A stretch of DNA of 20,858 nt, taken from positions 1-20,858 of the IMG/VR virus record IMGVR_UViG_3300032050_000981, one strand, 5' to 3'. A program made the translations under genes and the position numbers. Positions 2,005-20,858 of this stretch are shown here, piece by piece; the stretch's first letter is position 1; the number at the start of each line of letters is the position of its first letter. Under the pieces are notes generated by a model, which saw nothing but the letters and a program-made list of their open reading frames with translations, did no database searches and had not been told where the DNA came from. This stretch comes from a virus.

Positions 2005-3360
2005 TTACATGATGTTATTGACGAGAATACGACGATAGTATAGGTTTGTATCCTGTACTAGGCGACCGCTGTTTGCAGGAGTTGTGGCGTTGCCAGCTTC
2101 TGCAAATGGGTTGGCTACCATGCCGTAGCGTGTCTTGAAGCCAATCTTTGGCTGGAAGCTATTCTGATCGACTGCACGAACCATCTGGAGTGGAACGTAT
2201 GGGCAATAGAATAGACCGGCATCGAATGGGCTGGAACCCTTATAACCAGTTGTTAGATAGTTACCAGTTGTATATGGGTCGATGTATACACGAATACGAC
2301 CATTGAGTACACCAGCGAAGGTGTTACCTGTATCGTCAACGTTTAGGTTGTTGCTGTTTAGAGCAGGAGCGTAATCAAGAACACCAGCCATCTGAAGAGC
2401 AGAAGCTACGTCGCTTGAGCAGATGAGGATGTTGCCCTTGCCACGACGTGTGTCTTTGGCAATTTGGTTACATTCACGTTCAACCTGGAACATTAGGCCC
2501 TTGAACTTTTCAACTGACCAACGGCCGTTGGAGTCTGTATCAAGGTCGAATACACCGGCTGTGGTTGTACCAGTATTGGCACCGCGTACAGCTGTAATGT
2601 TGATTGTGCGGATTACTTCACGATTGATTTCAGCTAGAATTTCGGCGGAAAGAATATTGGATAGTTCTGTTTCAGCATCTAGACCATGAATAGCCTTAAG
2701 ATCCTGAGCGAGTTCCATTGAGTATTCAGCCTTTAGAGCGCGGCTTAGAGCAGTTACTGTTACCTTCTCGATGCTGAATGCCATTTCAGGAATTGCAGGA
2801 TGAGAAGTAGTACCTAGAGCTTCGGCGTTGGCTAGTGGTAGACCAATACCCATATTGTAAAGGGCATTACTAACGTTGCTGTTAGCAGAAGGAACTGTAC
2901 CGACTTGACCGTTACCGAAGGCAGCTGTGTTAGGTACTCTTGGTGAAGAGAATGAAGTATTCGCTTCGTTATAAAGTGCTTCTGCACTGGTCTGATCTGT
3001 GTAGCGAGCGCGCATTGCAAAGATTAGACCTGTTGGGCCAGTCATTGGCTGTACACCGCAGATGTCATAAGCAATGAGGTTAGGCATTGAACGACGAACG
3101 AGTGAAATCAAGACTGGGTCAAATGTATCAATTGCACCATCAGATGCAGTTGAAGATGAAGCGCCCATTGAGTTTGTTGGAGCAGCTTCGCCAAGAAGAT
3201 GCTGATAACCAAGCTGACGACCAGCTTCCCGTAGAGCGTTCTCTGTGTTTTCTAGAATGACTGCCGTAACTGCACGACGATGTGTGTCGGCAATCTTTGG
3301 TAGGTCAGGATGCTGTAGGACTGGGGCCCACTTTCTTTGTGCTTCTTCAGTTAGAATCAT
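2005..3360 (-). CDS. gp23: gp23 major capsid protein precursor
   Basis: Major head shell protein of T4-like phages, which forms the hexamers of the icosahedral capsid and is cut by the prohead protease on maturation. The start is set at the ATG at 3360, giving 451 residues, because AAGGAG lies 7 bases upstream. A longer reading from TTG at 3381 adds 7 residues but has no Shine-Dalgarno site. The N-terminus (MILTEEAQRKWAPVLQHPDL) is typical of the family. A [LI]-x-E cleavage site, L56-G57-E58 then A59, would remove a delta peptide of about 58 residues, similar to the 65 in T4. The region FDPVLISLVRRSMPNLIAYD, then GVQPMTGPTGLIFAMR, is strongly family-like. It is shorter than T4 gp23 (521). It has the clearest late promoter in the window and two terminators behind it, consistent with very high expression. 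Confidence 0.97.
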   Translation of the reverse strand: MILTEEAQRKWAPVLQHPDLPKIADTHRRAVTAVILENTENALREAGRQLGYQHLLGEAAPTNSMGASSSTASDGAIDTFDPVLISLVRRSMPNLIAYDICGVQPMTGPTGLIFAMRARYTDQTSAEALYNEANTSFSSPRVPNTAAFGNGQVGTVPSANSNVSNALYNMGIGLPLANAEALGTTSHPAIPEMAFSIEKVTVTALSRALKAEYSMELAQDLKAIHGLDAETELSNILSAEILAEINREVIRTINITAVRGANTGTTTAGVFDLDTDSNGRWSVEKFKGLMFQVERECNQIAKDTRRGKGNILICSSDVASALQMAGVLDYAPALNSNNLNVDDTGNTFAGVLNGRIRVYIDPYTTGNYLTTGYKGSSPFDAGLFYCPYVPLQMVRAVDQNSFQPKIGFKTRYGMVANPFAEAGNATTPANSGRLVQDTNLYYRRILVNNIM

Positions 3361-3402
3361 TGGTTTCTCCTTTGTTAGCAATCAATTATCTTGCTATTTT
3401 AC

Positions 3403-5582: not shown

Positions 5583-6818
5583 TTAATCACCTCTCTTAGC
5601 AGAGTAATATGCGGCTAAAGCTTGTTTCATTCGTTCTTTCTTAGATTTACCAGCAAACTTAGGATCTTTTGAATGAACAAAATCTGAAATATAAGCTCCT
5701 GCGCCCATTGAAGGATTTAGGACTTCATCTACTTGAACTTCTTCTTTACGAAGCAACTTGAAGTCTTCAGCGTCTATTTTACCATTTTTATTTGCATCAA
5801 TTTTATGCTGATTGCCAACTAATGGCTTAGCTGATGGATCCTTAACTCCATAATTCTTTAGACGATTAAAAAGCTTTTCAGTTGGGCTCTTTTTTCTTCT
5901 TGCTTCATAAATGTGTTCAACTGATTCTTTATTATGTTTATAAGCTGGGCCGGAAGTTGGTTTATAATATTTTTTAAGCTCGGCTTTACTTTTTTCATTT
6001 TCTTGACGATTTACATTATTAAGATTTGTTTGAGCATGCAATCTTGCATAACGAACTGCTTCCTTGCCATGATTTTTTTGTATTCGTGTAAGTACATGTC
6101 TGGCTTCATCTTCATGGGCTTCAGGATATTGCGAATCACGAGACTTTACTATGTGATCAGAATACTTATCTACAAGCTTATCTAGTTCAGGATTATGTTC
6201 TTCTTTTTGAACTTTATTAGCAGCAGTTTTAATCATCTTAATGCGTTTAACATATGCTTGACCAGCTCTATCTGGATCGCCATGTTTAGCGATCATATCC
6301 ATAGCATCTGCTTTTGATGGTGCAGAAACTCCAGCTTTTTGTAGATGACGAAGAAATCTAAAATGAGATGCGTGTGAATCTTCATTAACTTCTTCTATTT
6401 CTTCGTTCTTAGCGGCATATCGCTTTTTTATTCTTGCCATTTCACGTTCAGTAGCTGCTCTACGTTCTGGTGACATTCCTTGTGATTTATGTGGAGTTAA
6501 ACCGGGTGTTAGTGTAGATGGCTTATAATCTGGATCTGAACGTAGATAGCTAGTGTTATCTCTTCTATATCCTTCATAAACCTTTTCATCTTCATCTGGG
6601 TTATATCCGTGACGCTCTTTGGCGCGCTCAAGAGTCTTTACATTTGTAGCATTAAAGACATCGTCTTTATTGCCATTGCGATCATCTGTTTTTTGAACTA
6701 CATGCTTTTTCTTGAAGCGAAGTTCATCAGTGCTCTTAGGAGCATAACCATCTTTTGTATCTGGCTTTTCTAAAGCTTTCTTTTTGGCTCTATCTAAAAG
6801 TTCAGTTAGATTAATCAT
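5583..6818 (-). CDS. Prohead core/scaffold-associated protein (gp68-position) with an EF-hand-like loop
   Basis: 411 residues, very rich in Lys, Arg, Glu and Asp and mostly helical, without membrane segments. It occupies the position of T4 gene 68 (prohead core, 141 residues) but is almost three times as long, and homology cannot be shown by eye. A calcium-loop pattern, DANKNGKIDAEDF at 341-353, places D341, N343, N345, G346, I348, D349 and D352 where an EF-hand or dockerin loop requires them. A candidate gp21 cleavage site, I303-Y304-E305 before A306, lies upstream of the loop. The C-terminal tail (residues about 380-411) is strongly basic. The ATG overlaps the end of gp67 by 8 bases (ATGATTAA), implying coupled translation. 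The best guess is an internal head protein that is processed on maturation. Confidence 0.75.
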   Translation of the reverse strand: MINLTELLDRAKKKALEKPDTKDGYAPKSTDELRFKKKHVVQKTDDRNGNKDDVFNATNVKTLERAKERHGYNPDEDEKVYEGYRRDNTSYLRSDPDYKPSTLTPGLTPHKSQGMSPERRAATEREMARIKKRYAAKNEEIEEVNEDSHASHFRFLRHLQKAGVSAPSKADAMDMIAKHGDPDRAGQAYVKRIKMIKTAANKVQKEEHNPELDKLVDKYSDHIVKSRDSQYPEAHEDEARHVLTRIQKNHGKEAVRYARLHAQTNLNNVNRQENEKSKAELKKYYKPTSGPAYKHNKESVEHIYEARRKKSPTEKLFNRLKNYGVKDPSAKPLVGNQHKIDANKNGKIDAEDFKLLRKEEVQVDEVLNPSMGAGAYISDFVHSKDPKFAGKSKKERMKQALAAYYSAKRGD

Positions 6819-7122
6819 CTGATTCTCCGTCTTCTTGTTCTTCTGTGTCTTCGTCTTCTAATTCGATTTCTTCTGTATCGAGTTCTTCGACATCGATATC
6901 CATATCATCTAATGCCTGTTGTAGTTCATCTTCATCATATTCTTCGTCATCTTCAGTTTCGTCAGCAGGATCATTAAACATACGTTGAGCAACTTCTTGC
7001 TTTTTAGCAGCTAAAGCATCAACAGCGCGCTGACTCAATAGCTTATCTAAAGAAGCAGCAAAATCGATAGGTTGATTTTCATTTGCATATTTAACTAGAT
7101 CAAATACTTCTACATCAGCCAT
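6811..7122 (-). CDS. gp67: gp67-like prohead core protein
   Basis: 103 residues. The N-terminal half is helical (SLDKLLSQRAVDALAAKKQE), followed by an extremely acidic tail of Asp and Glu from about residue 52 to the end. T4 gp67 (80 residues) has the same design, a short helical head with LFAEAMAARTIDLIKEEK-like character and a poly-acidic tail. It is a minor prohead core protein that affects head shape and portal-vertex initiation. It lies directly after the portal gene, as in T4, and overlaps the next gene by 8 bases. An AAGGAA site precedes the ATG, and two late-promoter octamers lie just upstream. Identification rests on architecture and position. Confidence 0.85.
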   Translation of the reverse strand: MADVEVFDLVKYANENQPIDFAASLDKLLSQRAVDALAAKKQEVAQRMFNDPADETEDDEEYDEDELQQALDDMDIDVEELDTEEIELEDEDTEEQEDGESDD

Positions 7123-14335: not shown

Positions 14336-15064
14336 TTAATAATTTCCTTCTGAGAATGGATTTGCCTCAGAGAAATCTAATATATTATCAGCTTCTGTTT
14401 CAACCTCAGTATTATCTTCGAAGGAATCTCCGACCTGAGTAACGAAGTTAAATTGTTCTTGAACAAGATCATATCCGTCTTCATCCTGAAGGACATATGA
14501 ATCTTCTGTAAGCATACGATAATTAGAGAAATCAAACGAATAAAGTTCTTCTTTTGAATCAATTTCTGGAATACCGGTGTTGAGTCGTTCGTTTGAGTAT
14601 TCCCAAAGATCGCACACCAAATCAAACGTTTGTAGAGAACCTAGTTGATAGAATATAGCTTCATGTTCAACGAATTTAATTATAAAGATTTTTTTATTTA
14701 ATGGCAAATAGATAAGATCGCCTTCTCGTGGTCTAGCTAATTCATCTACATTACCAATCTCATCAAAGAAAGTTCTACGAGCTATTGTAAACGTTATCTG
14801 ATCTCTGATCTGGAGATTAAACTTAGATAAGAAATCGCCTTCTCCTTGAAATCCAGACACATCTTTGATGTACATATCAATAAAAAACGATTGATTATAT
14901 TCTGATACGCTGTCTTCACCACCAATCTCGTCTTTATTTTTCAACTGTCTTGGAATATAATACACGTCATGTCCATATATTTTTATGGATTCAATGATAA
15001 GATTCTCGATCAAGTTCTGTTCCATAGAACTTGTGAAGTTATTGAAGAAGACTGAGGTTGCCAT
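14336..15064 (-). CDS. gp14: gp14 neck protein
   Basis: 242 residues (T4 gp14 is 256). Gp14 and gp13 form the neck ring between portal and tail and close the head after packaging. Family-like features are the segment ESIKIYGHDVYYIPRQ near 27-42 (T4 ESIQMRGVECYYVPRE), the segment around GEGDFLSKFNLQIRDQITFT near 74-93, REGDLIYLPLNKKIF near 114-128, and the phrase EAIFYQLGSLQTF near 134-146. The acidic C-terminus ends ANPFSEGNY, comparable with the T4 tail ending in SPFDNDFMD. It follows gp13 with a 10-base gap and is one base from gp15, as part of a continuous late operon. Confidence 0.94.
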   Translation of the reverse strand: MATSVFFNNFTSSMEQNLIENLIIESIKIYGHDVYYIPRQLKNKDEIGGEDSVSEYNQSFFIDMYIKDVSGFQGEGDFLSKFNLQIRDQITFTIARRTFFDEIGNVDELARPREGDLIYLPLNKKIFIIKFVEHEAIFYQLGSLQTFDLVCDLWEYSNERLNTGIPEIDSKEELYSFDFSNYRMLTEDSYVLQDEDGYDLVQEQFNFVTQVGDSFEDNTEVETEADNILDFSEANPFSEGNY

Positions 15065-15074
15065 TAGATATATT

Positions 15075-15815
15075 TCAACCTACCATATCCATAACGGGTA
15101 ATGAATAACTGCTAATCATCTTATCTTCTAAGTCTGTAATTTCAGCAACAGCATCATTATAGATCTTCTCGCCATTAAACGTTAATCCGCCGGGAAGCTG
15201 CATACCAGTAAATTTAGTTAGATTAGAACCCCATTGACGTTTAATCAGAGCTGTTGCGTATCTCAACAACCATTGATCTTTCCAGACGTCAACATATTCA
15301 GTTGGATCTATGATCTGATAAGCTTCAACAAGTAGATATTCATTTGAGAGTGAGTTCCAATCCATATCGATATACAGACGATTCATATGGCGATTAAACC
15401 GTAGAAGTTGTTTACCGACTAACATTTCAGAAATCAGCGAAAGATGCTCCATGACCATGTAATAAGGAACCATCGATACAGATGTAAGCGTATATAGATC
15501 GTTTAATGCAATCTGATAACGAATATTAAAGAGGTCATCGGAACGAATAGATGGATCGGCAATATTGAAAAGATTCACTGCTCCGATTACATTGTCTGGA
15601 ACTGTAATATACTTATTAGTCTTATCAGTATCTGTGACTAAATGCTTATAATAGATCTTCTCTGTGCCATCAAAATGATAGTCCCAATAATAACGAAGAG
15701 CATCATCAACACGATCTTCTACTTGATCATCATCGACGTTGATTTCGATGACAGGTTTGCCTAGTCGTCTTAGACAATATTCTTTAAATGCAGCACGAGT
15801 AGTTGGAACAGCCAT
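15075..15815 (-). CDS. gp13: gp13 neck protein
   Basis: 246 residues; T4 gp13 is 309. It is the neck component that joins the packaged head to the tail together with gp14. The N-terminus (FKEYCLRRLGKPVIEINVDD, then DQVEDRVDDALRYYWDYHFDG) closely follows the family pattern of T4 (ILRRLGAPIINVELTPDQI with LYGEYHFDG). DVWKDQWLLRYATALIKRQW then GSNLTKFTGMQLPGG (about 179-213) is typical of marine T4-like gp13. It is preceded by two late-promoter-like octamers and a GGAGA site 5 bases before the ATG, so it probably begins a transcript for the neck and terminase genes. Confidence 0.95.
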   Translation of the reverse strand: MAVPTTRAAFKEYCLRRLGKPVIEINVDDDQVEDRVDDALRYYWDYHFDGTEKIYYKHLVTDTDKTNKYITVPDNVIGAVNLFNIADPSIRSDDLFNIRYQIALNDLYTLTSVSMVPYYMVMEHLSLISEMLVGKQLLRFNRHMNRLYIDMDWNSLSNEYLLVEAYQIIDPTEYVDVWKDQWLLRYATALIKRQWGSNLTKFTGMQLPGGLTFNGEKIYNDAVAEITDLEDKMISSYSLPVMDMVG

Positions 15816-15827
15816 ACATTTCTCCGA

Positions 15828-15846
15828 GATTTATAGAATATTTATG
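15828..15846 (-). promoter_or_regulatory. Late promoter region for gp13
   Basis: CATAAATA on the minus strand at 15846-15839 fits NATAAATA. TATAAATC at 15835-15828 is a one-mismatch octamer nearer the gene. Both lie in the 36-base gap before the gp13 ATG at 15815. The outer motif leaves a leader of about 18 bases that contains GGAGA. Confidence 0.6.
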
Positions 15847-15851
15847 TAGCG

Positions 15852-16181
15852 TTATCGAGTTACTTCTGGAGTAACCGTGACTATTCCCTCTTGGACTCTT
15901 GTTACTATCGCAGCATTACTCGTAATTTCACAGTCATAGACATATCTACCATATGAAATATTGGCAGTAGCATTAGCAGAAAGAGAAAGAGTGACCGTAC
16001 CAGAGTTTGCAACTGTAACTACAAATGATGTAGAGTTAGTAGACGAATAGTGTCTACGCATCTGAGCAGCACCTGTATAGTTAGTCAAATCCATAACATC
16101 ACCGTTTGAATCTTTAACCGTGATGGTGTTACTGAATGTAGCGCCTTGATCTATAACTAGGTTTGCTTTTGTCGATGCCAT
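15852..16181 (-). CDS. Small Ig-like beta-sandwich virion protein (BppU-like N-terminal domain type)
   Basis: 109 residues. It opens NLVIDQGATFSNTITVKDSN then GDVMDLTNYTGAAQMRRH, followed by alternating strands ending EGIVTVTPEVTR. The pattern of a DQGATF strand, a DLTGY-like turn, an AQMR strand and a closing V-strand is common in small phage structural proteins, including the N-terminal domain of baseplate upper proteins. I recall close relatives beside gp13 in marine T4-like phages. The function is not established. A minor neck, fibre or tail attachment role is inferred from its place directly upstream of gp13. It has a GGAT ribosome site and two late-promoter octamers upstream, so it is a late gene. 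Confidence 0.8.
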   Translation of the reverse strand: MASTKANLVIDQGATFSNTITVKDSNGDVMDLTNYTGAAQMRRHYSSTNSTSFVVTVANSGTVTLSLSANATANISYGRYVYDCEITSNAAIVTRVQEGIVTVTPEVTR

Positions 16182-16207
16182 ATTTAATCCAGAAAGTTTG
16201 GTTTCTT

Positions 16208-16906
16208 CTATTTATTATTTATAGAGTACCAGTTTCTATCTAATTTAGTATCAGCATTTACTATTGGAAAACTAAGAGAGATTCTTTTTTTAAGTGGAAA
16301 GCATTCATGATACTGATGTTTAGGTACATAGATCATATCGCCTGATTCTAGGTCACATTCAAACTCTACATCTAAATCCTTGCCATTCACATTGTATTCA
16401 AAGTTACAATCTTTGGCGCGTTGCTTATAGACTTTCCAATGACACTTACCAGATTGATGCAAGATTACGTTGTCAGCGTGATCGTAGTGCGCTCTGAACG
16501 ATTTGCTTTTCTTTAATCCGCAGTAAGCATGTACATCTACTGCCGTTTGTGGTATGATAGATTCTATCAGAGAACATATATGATTCACTTCCTTAGTTAT
16601 CTTAGATGCTCCAAGAATAACTAAACTATGACCAGCATTGATCTTATTGAACACGAATTGCGGATCTGGTCGTGGAGTATGAGACCATGCACAAGTAAAA
16701 AGCGGGATCTCTATCTTAACACGATTCTCATTGATAAGTTCTATACATTCAGGAGTAATACGATAGGTATCGTTTAGAAGATACTCTATGTCATCCCATT
16801 TGATTAATTTATGATCTAAAATATCCTTGGAATAAAATGCAGTTTGCGGATCACGACTAATCTTAATCAAAAGAGTTTCTAGGAAAGCACGTTCTTTTTT
16901 ATTCAT
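16208..16906 (-). CDS. JmjC/cupin-type Fe(II) oxygenase (putative protein hydroxylase)
   Basis: 232 residues. The core has the double-stranded beta-helix pattern of Cupin_4/JmjC oxygenases: FRAHYDHADNVILHQSGKCH then WKVY, with the metal-binding pair H140-x-D142, and GDMIYVPKHQYHECFPL, in which H200 is the likely third ligand. Known bacterial relatives of this family hydroxylate ribosomal proteins using 2-oxoglutarate. The substrate here is unknown. The N-terminal 70 residues, rich in charged helices, have no clear parallel. No Shine-Dalgarno site precedes the ATG, which lies in a very AT-rich stretch 14 bases after the previous gene. It is the last gene of an AT-rich accessory cassette and is followed by late promoters that overlap its stop codon. 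The family call is good; the biological role is open. Confidence 0.78.
   Translation of the reverse strand: MNKKERAFLETLLIKISRDPQTAFYSKDILDHKLIKWDDIEYLLNDTYRITPECIELINENRVKIEIPLFTCAWSHTPRPDPQFVFNKINAGHSLVILGASKITKEVNHICSLIESIIPQTAVDVHAYCGLKKSKSFRAHYDHADNVILHQSGKCHWKVYKQRAKDCNFEYNVNGKDLDVEFECDLESGDMIYVPKHQYHECFPLKKRISLSFPIVNADTKLDRNWYSINNK
16209..16223 (-). promoter_or_regulatory. Tandem late promoters (TATAAATA and AATAAATA) for the 109-aa gene and downstream
   Basis: TATAAATA at 16223-16216 and AATAAATA at 16216-16209 on the minus strand share one base. They overlap the last codons and the TAG stop of the oxygenase gene, and lie 28-42 bases before the next ATG at 16181. Confidence 0.7.
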
Positions 16907-16920
16907 AATATAATTTAAAA

Positions 16921-17448
16921 TTATAATCGTGTTATAATAGCAGTAATATCTCCGCTCTGTAATCGAATTGTAAGATTTTTTCCAGAAATATTTCGACCGA
17001 AATTTAATGCAGTTATCTCATTTCCATTTGCAATACATTTACCAATGATAGGTACAATATATCTGGTTTTATCAGACATACCTAAATCCATAGATTCCTC
17101 TATTATTGTAAAATCATGATTTTGTGTGTATGGAATAGGATTGAATGCAACATAGTACAATAAATTATTTCCGTTATTTAGAGCAGTTACTTTATTATTA
17201 AAGTAGGATCTAAAATTTATACCTTGTTTATGAGTACCAATAATTTCTATATTACCATTAATTCTATCATGAACAGTATATTTCATGTGGGGATTATCAG
17301 AGGAATCTAAACTTTGGATTACGCAATATACCCATTCATTGGCAATCCCGTCTCCTCTTAAAATCATATCTACAGATTCATGTGATCCAATATATCCATA
17401 ACAAATATTGAATTCATCTGTTTTTATTAAATTTGTAATTGTAGTCAT
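16921..17448 (-). CDS. Unknown beta-rich accessory protein
   Basis: 175 residues that I do not recognise. Predicted secondary structure is mainly strands, with many Asn, Ile and Tyr residues and no signal peptide or membrane helix. The final stretch (about 135-175) alternates small hydrophobic strands and Gly turns (VPIIGKCIANGNEITALNFG, and LTIRLQSGDITAIITRL at the end). This could be the second half of a cupin-like barrel, but the metal ligands expected for an enzyme are not evident, so this is only a suggestion. It sits between two small or oxygenase genes in the AT-rich cassette and has only a weak AAAGA ribosome site. The continuous reading frame and tight spacing (14 and 21 bases) support a real gene. 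Confidence 0.65.
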   Translation of the reverse strand: MTTITNLIKTDEFNICYGYIGSHESVDMILRGDGIANEWVYCVIQSLDSSDNPHMKYTVHDRINGNIEIIGTHKQGINFRSYFNNKVTALNNGNNLLYYVAFNPIPYTQNHDFTIIEESMDLGMSDKTRYIVPIIGKCIANGNEITALNFGRNISGKNLTIRLQSGDITAIITRL

Positions 17449-17469
17449 TTATTTACTATCTTTTTAGAT

Positions 17470-17748
17470 TTAAACGTCGATAATATCGCGATATGATGGC
17501 ACGATATGATCGCTAGATGAACCAACTAATTGTAGTAATTCTAATTTAGTTACAGATAACATCAAAGGCACTTTTTTCCATGTGTCTTTAAATTGATATG
17601 CAACTTCGTTTAACATTGTAACTAAGTCGTCTCGATTACCAGTCCATTTGAATATATTACTATTCTCTTGTACTCCATTAGTAAAACTCACGGTAATATT
17701 ACCAAGAGTTTCATCTACTTCTGTAATCTTCCAAGTTACTTCGCTCAT
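17470..17748 (-). CDS. Small unknown protein in the oxygenase cassette
   Basis: 92 residues with an N-terminal beta portion (VTWKITEVDETLGNITVSFT) and a C-terminal helical portion with Trp, Lys and Leu (about 42-80). I do not recognise a family with certainty. The opening resembles small proteins that accompany tail-fibre genes in marine T4-like phages, some suspected to be fibre assembly factors, but that is weak. Its ATG overlaps the stop of the upstream oxygenase gene by four bases (ATGA), so its translation is probably coupled to that enzyme. This argues for a shared or sequential function. Confidence 0.65.
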   Translation of the reverse strand: MSEVTWKITEVDETLGNITVSFTNGVQENSNIFKWTGNRDDLVTMLNEVAYQFKDTWKKVPLMLSVTKLELLQLVGSSSDHIVPSYRDIIDV

Positions 17749-18341
17749 TTAAACCTCGGTCCTGATATCCATACGACAAGAGTTCGTCTTGTCCCGTTTG
17801 TTATTGGTGTGACTCTATGTAATATATATGACGGAAACGCATATAGTAATCCTTTTTGTTTTTTACAAACATGAGGAATATTTCCCGTCATTAATTCTAA
17901 GTCCCCTCCTTCATATTCTGAAGGATGAGATAATTGTAAAACCATAGATAATTTTCTAGGAACATTATCGTTTGGTCCATTGTCCATATGCCAATCATAA
18001 TGTTGTTTAGATTTCTTTACATATTTATACGTTGTATACTGGAACAGTTCTCCAAATCCCCATAAATCTAAACCAAAAAATTTACCATTCAATTGTCTGG
18101 CTATATGTTGAAGTCTATCGGCTAACCATCCTTCATTATCTAACCATGATATAGTTGAACCTCGAATATTTTCATCACGAACTCCTTGACCTATGATAGC
18201 AGATTGAGGAGGTGCTCTTTCTCCCATTGTGCATATAGCATCTATCTCTTCATCAGTAAATCCATTTTCCCACCAAGCAAAAGTTGTACTATTATATGCC
18301 AAATCTGGCGATGGCATAAACATCTTCATTTGCGTACCCAT
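17745..18341 (-). CDS. 2-oxoglutarate/Fe(II) oxygenase of the prolyl-hydroxylase/PiuC type
   Basis: 198 residues. The metal-binding and cosubstrate residues are visible: HYDWHMDNG with H118-x-D120 (H114-x-D116 is an alternative pair), LHRVTPITNGTRR with distal H175, and R185, ten residues later, as the usual 2-oxoglutarate anchor. The HRVTP-(6 residues)-R pattern is characteristic of PiuC/PKHD-type hydroxylases. Such enzymes use O2 and 2-oxoglutarate to hydroxylate proline or other residues in proteins, or act on small molecules. The substrate is not shown by the sequence. The gene overlaps its upstream neighbour by 16 bases. A second in-frame ATG at 18329 would form an ATGA overlap with the upstream stop and may be the true start, removing four residues. 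It lies next to, but not touching, a collagen-like adhesin gene. Confidence 0.85.
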   Translation of the reverse strand: MGTQMKMFMPSPDLAYNSTTFAWWENGFTDEEIDAICTMGERAPPQSAIIGQGVRDENIRGSTISWLDNEGWLADRLQHIARQLNGKFFGLDLWGFGELFQYTTYKYVKKSKQHYDWHMDNGPNDNVPRKLSMVLQLSHPSEYEGGDLELMTGNIPHVCKKQKGLLYAFPSYILHRVTPITNGTRRTLVVWISGPRFK

Positions 18342-19033
18342 AAATTATTTCGATAATGACTACGCTCAACTTTCATCCTAGCCGAAGTTTTTTGTATTTT
18401 CTTCAATTCTTGTTGATTTAACTCATGTATGTCAGCTTCGATTTCAAAAGAACTTCTTTGTATTGGAATAGCCTGTATCAACGGAGTACCTACTGGAAGC
18501 ATTCCTTGAAAATTAGGTTTATTCCAAAAAGCAGGAAAATTTACAAATTCTTCATATCTATCACAATCTACTATACCAGTAACACAAGAAAATCTTTCAT
18601 CTTCTCTGTTAAAAGGAGAGGTAAAAAGAACTGACCATCCATCAGGAACTTTGATTGACCAATAGTTTAAAAATTTAATTGGAGGTTTAGGGTATTTCGG
18701 ATGTTTATCATCATTTATTTGACTAGCTAAATGAGATTCTAATATTGGCTTGTTCCAATCGCAATGCCAATCGATGCGAGAACAATCTTCATTCGTAGTA
18801 ATGTGTACTTCAGACGCTAATGGAATAATCCATCCTACAATCATCGCATCTAGAAAAGGAGCACATCTTTTAATAGTGGAACTATTCGAATTTGAATCTA
18901 ATGCGGGAACAAGATCTTTATACCAATTAGGCATAAGTTTTCTTGCCGGATAAGGTTTTGGAATTACATCCCAATCTTCTTCACGACATCTAAATTCAAT
19001 TACAGATTGTTTTGGCTTAAACCACTTAAACAT
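18326..19033 (-). CDS. DUF6065-like protein of unknown function
   Basis: 235 residues. The pattern of CREEDWDVIPKPYPARKLMP then NWYKDLVPA near 16-44, TIKRCAPFLDAMIVGWIIPL near 53-72, a Trp-rich segment, PPIKFLNYWSIKVPDGWSVL then FTSPFNR near 116-142, and NFPAFWNKPNFQGMLPVGTP near 164-183 matches a family I know from many phages and some bacteria as DUF6065. Its function is unknown, and I see no catalytic signature. Aromatic and proline-rich blocks suggest a compact beta-type fold. It lies directly after the glycine-rich adhesin gene (28-base gap) and overlaps the oxygenase gene by 16 bases, so it is likely part of the same accessory unit. The ribosome site is a weak GTGAG. Confidence 0.75.
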   Translation of the reverse strand: MFKWFKPKQSVIEFRCREEDWDVIPKPYPARKLMPNWYKDLVPALDSNSNSSTIKRCAPFLDAMIVGWIIPLASEVHITTNEDCSRIDWHCDWNKPILESHLASQINDDKHPKYPKPPIKFLNYWSIKVPDGWSVLFTSPFNREDERFSCVTGIVDCDRYEEFVNFPAFWNKPNFQGMLPVGTPLIQAIPIQRSSFEIEADIHELNQQELKKIQKTSARMKVERSHYRNNLWVRK

Positions 19034-19061
19034 AATTTTTCACTCACTTTTATATTATATA

Positions 19062-20267
19062 TCATCGTTCAGAACCAGTCCATGAAATGACTACGCTTCC
19101 ATTTGCAGCTCCAACAGTACCATTAGCGGCTTGGGAACCGGGTGTTAAATTACCAATTCTTCCACCAGTGCCTCCAGTGCCTCCAGTGCCACGACTGCCA
19201 ATTTGAATAGTTAATACATCACCTGAAGTTACACGAACTAACGTATCAGTACGCGATTGTCCTGCGCCTCCTGATTGACCAGGAGGAGATACTACTCCAA
19301 TTGTGCCATTTACGCTTGGTGCATTTGCTGCAACTCCTCCATTACCTCCAGTTGCACCACCTCCACCTCCACCTGCACCTGCATATGGTTGACCGATCGC
19401 TCCAGCGCCGCCATCTCCAGCATTTCCGGGTCCAGCACCTCCAGCACCGCCAGCCCCGCCTGTGCTGTTTGTGGTATTCCATGGTTGACCAATAGTACCG
19501 GCTTGACCCGACGTTCCTGCGGTTCCACTTGGAGTGCCTCCAGCTCCGCCTTGACCACCAGCACCGCCTGGCCCGCCGGGATTATTAGTTGAGTTTGCGC
19601 GAGTGCCTCCAGATCCTCCAGCGCCGCCTTGACCACCGTTTCCAGCAGTTGCTTGAGCAGCTGTGCCAGCATTTCCTGCGGCCCCGCCCGGTCCACCAGC
19701 ACCTGCACTACCTCCAGCATATGTTAATGTTGTAAATGCAGCTGCTGTTGTTTGTCCAACTACGTTAGTGGCACCGCCCGCATTACCTGCTGCTCCTTGT
19801 TGACCAGTTCCTGCAGCTATACCAGGAGTTATTATGTTCCCTGCGGCGCCGACGTTTCCAGGCTGACCTCTTGTTCCAGCTTGTCCAGGCGCATTAGCAC
19901 CTTGATACGGGCCGGCTAAATTGTTGCCGCCTTGTCCGCCAGCGCCGCCGACACCTTGAGGACTGGATGCAGCGGCTTGTCCAGCTTGACCTGCTATAGC
20001 AATGTTTGCTTTGACACCATTAAGACCTCCACCGCCACCGCCACCGCCGCCGGCTGTGCCAGCATTTCCAGAACCGGCCGCATTTCTATTTTCTCCAGTT
20101 CCAGCACTACCTAATCCACCCGCTCCTCCGGAGCCTCCACTAGCCCCAGCGCCTTGCACACTAATCCACTGCACTCCGACAGGAACAGTAAAAGTTCCAG
20201 ATGTGTTAAACGTCTGAGTACCAGCTGCAGCAGACTGACGTATTCTGGCTCTAAATCCTAATGGCAT
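19062..20267 (-). CDS. Glycine-rich (Gly-X-Y block) virion protein, candidate adhesin
   Basis: 401 residues, with glycine by far the commonest, plus Ala, Asn, Gln, Thr and Pro. A short beta frame, FNTSGTFTVPVGVQWISVQG near 20-39 and VRVTSGDVLTIQIGSRG near 344-360, closing with GSVVISWTG, brackets long glycine inserts. This resembles the glycine-rich domains of phage tail proteins and, more distantly, the polyglycine-II loops of S16-type gp38 adhesins. Blocks with Gly at every third residue are seen at 128-145, 189-203, 209-223, 232-246 and 248-262. A run of nine glycines lies at 73-81. Base composition is GC-rich because of GGN, GCN and CCN codons. It lies 3 bases after the upstream gene. A role in host recognition or fibre-tip structure is inferred from composition and position upstream of the neck genes. 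Confidence 0.8.
   Translation of the reverse strand: MPLGFRARIRQSAAAGTQTFNTSGTFTVPVGVQWISVQGAGASGGSGGAGGLGSAGTGENRNAAGSGNAGTAGGGGGGGGGLNGVKANIAIAGQAGQAAASSPQGVGGAGGQGGNNLAGPYQGANAPGQAGTRGQPGNVGAAGNIITPGIAAGTGQQGAAGNAGGATNVVGQTTAAAFTTLTYAGGSAGAGGPGGAAGNAGTAAQATAGNGGQGGAGGSGGTRANSTNNPGGPGGAGGQGGAGGTPSGTAGTSGQAGTIGQPWNTTNSTGGAGGAGGAGPGNAGDGGAGAIGQPYAGAGGGGGGATGGNGGVAANAPSVNGTIGVVSPPGQSGGAGQSRTDTLVRVTSGDVLTIQIGSRGTGGTGGTGGRIGNLTPGSQAANGTVGAANGSVVISWTGSER
19165..19190. repeat. Short tandem repeat, 9-bp unit, about 2.9 copies
   Basis: CCAGTGCCT is repeated almost three times without mismatch. On the minus strand it encodes three Gly-Gly-Thr units of the glycine-rich protein (about residues 360-368). 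Repeats of this kind can change copy number by slippage. Confidence 0.8.
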
Positions 20268-20270
20268 GTA

Positions 20271-20612
20271 TTATGGCTCGTAATTCTTGAAAGTTTCATC
20301 TGCAAGCAATGATTCTAAAGTTAGATGAACGGTATGCTTTGGATAACCGCCATTGATAGAAGAATCGGCTTTTTGATATATTAAAAATGGAAATGATTCA
20401 GGCGAAAGTAAAAATGAACCATCTGGATTAGGTCCAAACCAAGAATTTACTGGATCTACTACGGCTTGTAGATTTTCTAGTGTAGTACCACCGTAATTTA
20501 GATCTTTCCATTCTACATTCAATGAACTCAGATACTGTCTCCAAGGACAAGAATATAGTTTAGAAGCAGGTGTGATTGAATATAAAGTAGCATCGTAAAT
20601 AACAACAGCCAT
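20271..20612 (-). CDS. Small unknown protein in the tail-fibre region
   Basis: 113 residues that I do not recognise. It is mixed in character, with many aromatics and Pro/Gly turns (NSWFGPNPDGSFLLSPESFP near 57-76) and a possible helix near 95-108. There is no signal peptide or membrane segment. A strong GGAGGA ribosome site lies 5 bases before the ATG, better than those of the accessory genes downstream, and it follows the upstream gene by 12 bases. It directly precedes the glycine-rich protein with a 3-base gap, so it may be a virion partner, capping subunit or chaperone of the adhesin. This is inference from position only. Confidence 0.7.
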   Translation of the reverse strand: MAVVIYDATLYSITPASKLYSCPWRQYLSSLNVEWKDLNYGGTTLENLQAVVDPVNSWFGPNPDGSFLLSPESFPFLIYQKADSSINGGYPKHTVHLTLESLLADETFKNYEP

Positions 20613-20624
20613 CGAGTCCTCCTA

Positions 20625-20858
20625 TTAAGTAGTAAAGTTCATAAAAGATGGTGCTACTATATATGAAGAACCACCATCATAAGTTATTACAGATAATATA
20701 TCGCTTTTTGCTGGGCTTAACGTTAATGTTGGAGCAGTATTGTATGCATATTTCATTGTACCAGCAGCACCGGCTTGAGTGTTGCCCTGAATAGCTAGTG
20801 CTCCAATTGAGTTAGCGCCAGTGCCTAGGTATTGAAGAATAAGCGTTGCAGAAACCGC
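20625..20858 (-). CDS. C-terminal end of a virion/tail-fibre-type protein (cut by window edge)
   Basis: An open frame enters from the right edge and ends with TAA at 20627-20625, giving the last 77 residues. It is a beta-type sequence, rich in Ala, Thr, Ser and Asn, with NSIGALAIQGNTQAGAAGTM then KYAYNTAPTLTLSPAKSDIL, ending SYIVAPSFMNFTT. The pattern of a short strand, a DGGSSY-like turn, and a closing aromatic strand is common at the C-terminus of phage tail-fibre and other receptor-binding proteins. Identity cannot be fixed from this fragment. It is 12 bases upstream of the next gene and probably shares its transcript. Confidence 0.7.
   Translation of the reverse strand, partial: AVSATLILQYLGTGANSIGALAIQGNTQAGAAGTMKYAYNTAPTLTLSPAKSDILSVITYDGGSSYIVAPSFMNFTT

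Follow-up and report, generated by a model that had tools for sequence, protein, structure and literature searches.

The five genes between the tail-fibre genes and gp13 of a T4-type phage, recorded in IMG/VR as IMGVR_UViG_3300032050_000981 (20,858 bases, the whole of which is called the window here), are best explained as the downstream half of a module for a tail adhesin, enlarged by additions specific to the lineage. All five lie on the minus strand and encode, in order of transcription, a DUF6065-like protein (18326-19033), the PF13640 oxygenase OXY (17745-18341), the two uncharacterised proteins U92 (17470-17748) and U175 (16921-17448), and the PF08007 JmjC_2/cupin oxygenase JmjC (phrog_8014; 16208-16906). 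These open reading frames (ORFs) and gene kinds, as given by a first-pass annotation made from the sequence alone, were confirmed. Within a fibre module, the DUF6065-like gene and OXY are the core genes that are conserved, and they are not part of one foreign block. The core has a fixed neighbour, a Gly-rich protein in which the position of proline changes with the type of oxygenase, and this points to a specific and testable substrate. We consider it reasonably probable that the core serves 2-oxoglutarate (2OG)-dependent hydroxylation of the tail adhesin, which in most relatives would be prolyl hydroxylation in X-Pro-Gly. L-numbers (L028, L083, L149, etc.) are labels of the compared sequence records and contigs.

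The DUF6065-like gene and OXY beside a glycine-rich gene

A profile scan of viral contigs yielded 394 DUF6065 relatives, and locus counts were drawn from 80 of the 394 that were listed, with 39 non-redundant copies that have room upstream used for neighbour counts. A Gly-rich ORF is located at most 4 genes upstream in 36 of these 39 loci, and a gene of the OXY type, i.e., prolyl 4-hydroxylase (P4H) type, at most 3 genes away in 30 of them (a further DUF6065 copy, in L152, ends where its contig ends). The genes are usually arranged as a large fibre gene, a protein of about 100-130 amino acids (aa), a Gly-rich protein, in some cases a protein of about 67 aa, DUF6065 and OXY. In L141, L143, L145, and L146, a PF13759-type 2OG gene follows DUF6065 in place of OXY; this non-orthologous replacement indicates that a 2OG oxygenase is required in both kinds of locus. 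The position of DUF6065 and OXY beside the Gly-rich gene is maintained down to DUF6065 identities of 38-50%, which argues against a moron-type or auxiliary-metabolic block, in which the oxygenases would occupy a permissive fibre hot spot, act on host metabolites, ribosomes or 2OG pools, and have no link to the fibre. We regard this alternative as improbable, and its further merits are weighed with the gene histories below.

Every gene considered is carried by the minus strand. Transcription runs from the end of the large fibre gene through U113, GLY, and the five genes in question to the gene of a phrog_1084 protein, after which gp13 and the remaining genes for neck, tail, and head follow. GLY (19062-20267, minus strand) is a probable tail adhesin and is the proposed substrate; it comprises 401 aa, of which 33% are Gly, with conserved ends, a variable middle, and indels.

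OXY matches PF13640 with 53 bits against a cut-off of 27, and its iron triad (H118, D120, and H175) and 2OG-binding R185 are invariant in 42 sequences. Profile matches in the PDB were obtained to PKHD (1.7e-15), P4H (1.4e-7), and PHD2, so that OXY is a predicted 2OG-Fe(II) oxygenase of the PKHD/P4H branch. Its partner matches phrog_7084 (4.7e-56) and has 21 invariant columns across 43 sequences. Since it scores 17.3 bits with PF19541, below the gathering cut-off of 26.6 (a relative in L028 reaches 46.6), it is called DUF6065-like. While a sequence search of DUF6065 against the PDB returned nothing, the AlphaFold (AF2) model (pLDDT 92.6) indicates a dUTPase-like fold, with a Foldseek match to 3ecy (2.5e-5) and VIA comparisons to dUTPases at Z 9.7 and root-mean-square deviations of 3.4-5.2 over 118-133 residues.

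This fold, together with the partial retention of motifs 3 (G-x-V-D) and 4 (G....Q), is what would be expected if DUF6065 were a working nucleotide enzyme of the dUTPase or dCTP-deaminase type and the genes served nucleotide or DNA modification. However, most catalytic signature motifs of the dUTPase superfamily are missing, namely motifs 1 (AGxDL), 2 (PRS), and 5 (the C-terminal RGxxGFG) in the window protein and in the relatives displayed, and the gene is fixed beside a virion adhesin rather than among replication genes, which makes a nucleotide enzyme very unlikely.

Proline position in the linked glycine-rich proteins

If OXY hydroxylates proline of the adhesin, proline is expected in the X-Pro-Gly register. 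With the expectation obtained by permutation of non-Gly residues, Gly-rich proteins linked to both DUF6065 and a P4H-type gene contained 1182 X-Pro-Gly against 710 expected (z 26; 27 of 34 proteins with p<0.05). The number was at expectation in Gly-rich proteins linked to DUF6065 and PF13759 (14 vs 13.9) and in those with neither DUF6065 nor P4H (26 vs 22.9). A first version of the test with looser groups gave the same outcome (1140 vs 748 and 59 vs 59). With regard to INDEPENDENCE and limits, it should be noted that z values overstate the evidence, owing to the relatedness of the sequences and the repeats within them, and that the grouping thresholds (Gly fraction, oxygenase distance, and redundancy cut) were chosen during the analysis, as the test was refined stepwise.

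The P4H-linked proteins are also richer in proline, with a median content of 5.5% compared to 2.2-2.5% in the others, and only in this set is Gly found at positions -5, -2, +1, and +4 from Pro at frequencies of 0.70-0.81 (otherwise 0.34-0.42), which is a three-residue register. The longest Gly-X-Y run of the linked Gly-rich proteins has a median of 47.5 triplets, compared to 6.6 after shuffling, and extends up to 114 triplets. When the X and Y positions were compared in Gly-X-Y runs of at least 10 triplets, Pro accounted for 16.5% of Y and 2.8% of X in the proteins linked to DUF6065 and P4H, with Y exceeding X in 32 of 34, while other Gly-X-Y proteins of the same loci had Pro in 35.9% of X and 2.8% of Y. 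Both kinds of protein are present in each of L140, L180, L186, and L208. That the position of proline in the adhesin follows the type of oxygenase further speaks against oxygenases acting on host metabolism without a link to the fibre.

A separate question is whether proline position and oxygenase are connected by catalysis or by co-inheritance in one recombining fibre cassette. In the latter case, proline in Y would be a structural preference, for instance for Asn-Pro-Gly turns or polyglycine II packing, and OXY would modify another residue or virion protein. In the DUF6065 tree, L149, which carries a P4H-type OXY, falls inside the PF13759 clade. Its adhesin has 20 Pro and 14 X-Pro-Gly against 9 expected, while the adhesins of its clade relatives L141, L143, L145, and L146 have 4-10 Pro and X-Pro-Gly at expectation. 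This switch within a clade, mirrored in the proline of the adhesin, as well as an enzyme profile that points to the prolyl-hydroxylase branch, argues against co-inheritance, which we consider unlikely. In its favour, Ala in the same proteins also prefers Y, and the same adhesin family has almost no Y-proline in the PF13759-linked phages.

Several further observations count against prolyl hydroxylation of the adhesin, and two of them, the small number of switches on the tree and the lack of a significant signal in the window protein, also support co-inheritance. The P4H label requires only two changes on the DUF6065 tree, and therefore, few independent contrasts are available; it is conceivable that the adhesin family has had Y-proline from early on and that this trait just travels together with the oxygenase. 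At the P4H-type genes without DUF6065 (L051, L068, and L106), 12 X-Pro-Gly were found against 17.2 expected, a lack of excess that rules out OXY linkage alone as the explanation of Y-proline. In the window itself, the longest Gly-X-Y run of GLY has 6 triplets, compared to 5.4 after shuffling, so that GLY falls short of the long runs of a collagen-like protein. It contains 8 X-Pro-Gly against 5.6 expected, which is no significant excess (p 0.14), with a similar result for L083 (p 0.08). The substrate claim for the window phage therefore rests on synteny and homology. Moreover, the PKHD relatives PiuC and YbiX are, to our knowledge, not established protein hydroxylases, and thus, sequence kinship does not fix the substrate of OXY. 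Finally, cellular and haloarchaeal-virus DUF6065 genes mostly lack an oxygenase, which suggests that DUF6065 has uses outside the adhesin module. The homologues in L268-L347, from many Rhizobiales and other bacteria, are mostly single genes as far as is apparent (42 copies placed, which is weak since the high-GC loci were poorly ORF-called), and L268, a metagenome-assembled genome of Dehalococcoidia, has a phage-like DUF6065-oxygenase pair.

With these points taken into account, hydroxylation of the adhesin could proceed as follows. As its synteny shows, the core is one coupled minus-strand run of large fibre, U113-type protein, Gly-rich protein, DUF6065, and 2OG oxygenase. OXY, as a putative protein prolyl hydroxylase, would be produced together with the Gly-rich adhesin. 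Taking Fe(II), O2, and 2OG, it would hydroxylate the proline of X-Pro-Gly before or during folding of the adhesin, and the modification may stabilise or diversify a shaft of Gly-X-Y or polyglycine type. DUF6065, with its dUTPase fold lacking most signature motifs, might act as a partner in substrate presentation or assembly, which is a guess. In the window phage, a protein hydroxylase of JmjC type would have joined the module along with a small protein, and one orphan gene was inserted recently; the extension from the related adhesins to the collagen-poor Gly-rich protein of this phage is by homology only. If true, some phages tune their host-recognition fibres by oxygen-dependent modification.

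Separate histories of the five genes

The first-pass annotation described the five genes as a transferred moron-type block, a proposal that was upheld in part. The slot ahead of gp13 indeed varies greatly, and this gene set is missing from most phages whose gp13 is related. Of the closest isolates by gp13, Stenotrophomonas phage DLP6 (64%) and Caulobacter phage Cr30 (57%), DLP6 has just two hypothetical proteins (250 and 292 aa, from coordinates) and one small ORF upstream of gp13. L082 is nearly identical to the window (99.96% over 7.2 kb). The same order without U175 is found in L083 and L090, with OXY, U92, and JmjC kept in both and the DUF6065-like gene in L083 as well. In L083 and L090, 19 bp take the place of an inserted segment of about 580 bp (16924-17503, minus strand), which holds U175 and the final codons of U92. 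Since U175 is missing from the more distant L092, too, its gain in the lineage of the window is the simplest reading of the sequences. The only relative of U175 among the viral contigs is that of the near-identical contig, and none was found in isolated phages, Pfam, or NCBIfam. The variable slot and the recent insertion of U175 are in line with oxygenases in a permissive hot spot that act on host metabolism.

The five genes do not move as a unit, however. U92 occupies the same position in L083, L090, and L092, and no homologue in isolated phages was matched; its membership in a wider fibre-locus family is not claimed, as similarities to small proteins in L085 and L076 reached only E 0.7-1.3. 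At the slot ahead of gp13, U92 and JmjC occur only in the small group of the window, while JmjC relatives occur in cyanophages, and the ranges of OXY and the DUF6065-like gene reach much further than those of U92, U175, and JmjC. The absence of U175 from three relatives and the different ranges of the other genes rule out a conserved five-gene unit. Comparison with related phages also did not give the result named beforehand as refuting a transferred block, namely all five genes throughout the phage group: close kin retain four of the five, and the core pair has a far wider range.

JmjC matches PF08007 with 62.8 bits against a cut-off of 22 (residues 108-214 of 232), and its HxD...H residues (H140, D142, and H200) are invariant in 5 sequences. 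Its closest solved relatives, and nearest PDB matches, are the protein histidyl hydroxylases NO66 and MINA, and this kinship to ribosomal oxygenases is another point for a role in host metabolism. Unlike the ribosomal oxygenases (ROX) NO66, MINA, and YcfD, however, JmjC is too short for C-terminal dimerisation and winged-helix domains behind the JmjC domain.

Compared to L083, the ratios of nonsynonymous to synonymous substitution (dN/dS) are 0.08 for the DUF6065-like gene, 0.08 for OXY, and 0.07 for JmjC, and purifying selection on these genes is as strong as on the virion genes (gp13, 0.05; gp14, 0.06); GLY has a value of 0.28. Synonymous divergence from L083 is uneven along 14336-20612, with 0.10 for gp13, 0.15 for gp14, 0.19 for OXY, 0.67 for the DUF6065-like gene, and 0.65 for JmjC, which suggests recombination inside the fibre-neck region.

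The structural signs that had been taken to set the block apart fared variously. Both overlaps, one of 16 bases and one of 4, exist in the sequence, and with the alternative start Met5 of OXY (18329), the DUF6065/OXY overlap becomes the usual 4-base ATGA. Such overlaps are not special to the block, as gp15/gp16 and the gene pair at 834-837 also share 4 bases. A 16-base overlap between DUF6065 and the oxygenase was found in 16 distinct DUF6065 loci, a 4-base overlap in 5, and a 1-base overlap in 16; the recurrence of the 16-base overlap therefore represents conserved architecture and not disorder. None of the spacers ahead of the five genes has the late motif TATAAATA, as had been noted, and both exact matches to TATAAATA in the block lie inside coding sequence (18022-18029 and 16216-16223), the latter, a T4-type motif on the minus strand, in the 3' part of JmjC, 42 bases ahead of the next gene. 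The supposed clean contrast with flanking virion genes did not hold, because GLY, U113, gp14, gp15, gp16, gp17, gp20, and gp21 likewise lack a near-consensus late motif. Ribosome sites are weak or missing for U175, JmjC, and OXY (Shine-Dalgarno energies of -0.9, +0.6, and +0.1 kcal/mol), but not for the DUF6065-like gene (-4.4) and U92 (-6.6).

Similarly, with regard to the AT-richness ascribed to the block, U175 alone stands out (GC 0.284), and the DUF6065-like gene (0.34), OXY (0.355), U92 (0.33), and JmjC (0.349) do not. GC at third codon positions (GC3) is low in U175, OXY, and the DUF6065-like gene, and also in U113 and two portal-side genes (5583-6818 and 6811-7122), i.e., on both the fibre and the scaffold side. 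The step in GC at 19060 originates mostly from the 55% GC of the Gly/Ala-rich GLY (GC3 0.24) and is therefore an amino-acid effect of its Gly and Ala codons. Codon-model scores of all five genes fall inside the range of virion genes, and hence, foreign codon use was not borne out. Neither a minus-strand terminator nor a spacer late motif of the block's own was found in the window, and with the separate ranges of the genes, this does not fit a moron block that has its own promoter and terminator and is transferred as a unit. The lack of both elements and the codon use likewise speak against a block devoted to host metabolism. The findings are better described by a module linked to the adhesin, with local additions, than by a moron block.

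Known systems, related arrays, and flanking genes

Animal collagen is a close parallel to the adhesins of most relatives, which have long Gly-X-Y runs with Pro strongly in Y, and animal collagen P4H, which acts on the Y-proline of Gly-X-Y, belongs to the same 2OG oxygenase branch as OXY. The putative phage P4H differs in that it is phage-encoded; in addition, X is often Asn and rarely Pro, and GLY of the window has no long Gly-X-Y runs. Phage collagens such as EPclP of Escherichia coli prophages favour Pro in X, and viruses were said to lack prolyl hydroxylases (PMC3368898). While the EPclP side-tail fibres and the linked adhesins are both Gly-X-Y fibres of tailed phages, the former have Pro in X and no P4H, and the DUF6065-linked adhesins have Pro in Y and an adjoining P4H-type gene. 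The linkage of Y-proline and P4H thus runs against the claim that viral collagens lack both (PMC3368898). A virus-encoded P4H was described for Chlorella virus PBCV-1, with evidence for hydroxyproline in viral proteins, according to the citation of Eriksson et al. 1999 in PMC9301287. This enzyme is virus-encoded like OXY and differs in being that of a eukaryotic virus. We know of no described link of it to a tail adhesin or to DUF6065. The S16 gp38-type polyglycine II adhesins resemble GLY by description, as Gly-rich, variable tail-tip adhesins, and no oxygenase neighbours of theirs are known to us.

Phage 2OG oxygenases are abundant, above all prolyl-hydroxylase-like ones, and published accounts describe their substrates as unknown or place them in host metabolism (PMC9301287, PMC3037559, PMC9964418, PMC12774648). 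Their treatment as auxiliary metabolic or repair genes, with those of cyanophages published as host metabolism, DNA repair, or 2OG control (PMC3037559, PMC9964418), favours a role in host metabolism. A search of open-licence literature found no paper on DUF6065 and none that joins glycine-rich, tail fiber, phage, and oxygenase. The cyanophages syn9 and S-CREM1 resemble the window phage in that their fibre and Gly-rich genes have a DUF6065 relative (1e-22 and 9e-19, respectively), a JmjC relative, and further 2OG genes downstream. They differ in that several oxygenases are arrayed together with a tryptophan halogenase, which lies upstream of them, and that the Gly-rich proteins contain His and little Pro. 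Likewise, the cyanophage 2OG arrays of L188, L189, L190, and L191 open with a DUF6065 relative, after His-containing Gly-rich proteins; the JmjC relative in such arrays may suit a histidine target.

In the related ARRANGEMENTS of L028, L030, and L088, a Pro/Gly-rich repeat protein is followed, in this order, by OXY, DUF6065, a second DUF6065-like gene, a PF11397-type (GlcNAc) glycosyltransferase, and sulfotransferase-like genes. The PF11397 assignment is based on Pfam in L028 (7e-26) and on similarity in L030 and L088. The run in L028 (382-9915) also holds desaturase-like and DUF6445 genes, and its repeat protein is rich in NGPANYNAP-like units and extensin-like in Pfam, below the cut-off. Tentatively, and by analogy, these genes might belong to a widespread phage adhesin-maturation pathway, in which DUF6065 and P4H would make hydroxyproline at Y of collagen-like adhesins, and in L028, L030, and L088, the glycosyltransferase and the sulfotransferases would decorate the repeat protein further. 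If true, bacterial viruses would possess a modification pathway in the style of collagen, with glycosylation analogous to the hydroxyproline-linked glycosylation of eukaryotes.

DUF6065 homologues with 34-40% identity are also present in Halophage HF1 (L107) and about 50 haloarchaeal virus records. The HF1 gene has no adjoining annotated oxygenase, lies close to ribonucleotide reductase, and has the opposite orientation to the virion genes.

Among the flanking genes of the window, all on the minus strand, the large fibre gene is represented by its C-terminal end (20625-20858), with weak PHROG tail-fibre matches; in L082, the contig with 99.96% identity, it encodes 1141 aa. U113 (20271-20612; 113 aa) belongs to a family (match E about 1e-24) of which 132 of 146 redundant copies adjoin a Gly-rich ORF. 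Its AF2 model (pLDDT 91.9) has a predicted glutaredoxin/thioredoxin-like topology (best VIA Z 8.2, glutaredoxin), although Foldseek gave no significant match and the PDB profile match had E 0.5; lacking CxxC, U113 was rejected as a true glutaredoxin, the resemblance being one of fold only. The fibre-side gene ahead of gp13 (15852-16181) encodes a phrog_1084 protein (2e-30) that also matches phrog_3304 (L-shaped tail-fibre assembly; 1.2e-20). At the other end of the window, the gp23 ORF (2005-3381) has a TTG start with a poor ribosome site, and translation may in fact begin at an ATG further on (MILTEE...).

Further observations concern the neck and terminase genes of relatives. Within gp17 (terminase large subunit) of a close relative, an insertion of about 970 bp (L002, 4164-5140; window equivalent about 12332) could be an intron, intein, or homing element. 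The gap between gp13 and gp14 is enlarged in many relatives and holds GIY-YIG endonuclease-like ORFs in L092 (3439-4101, weak SegE match) and L068 (10796-11476). Directly ahead of gp13 in L092, an ORF of 160 aa (2148-2630) without a Pfam match has an N-terminus, MATPTTRPAF, that copies the start of gp13, and upstream of gp13 in L068 (8585-9292), the start of the encoded protein resembles a Hint/intein-type domain by eye.

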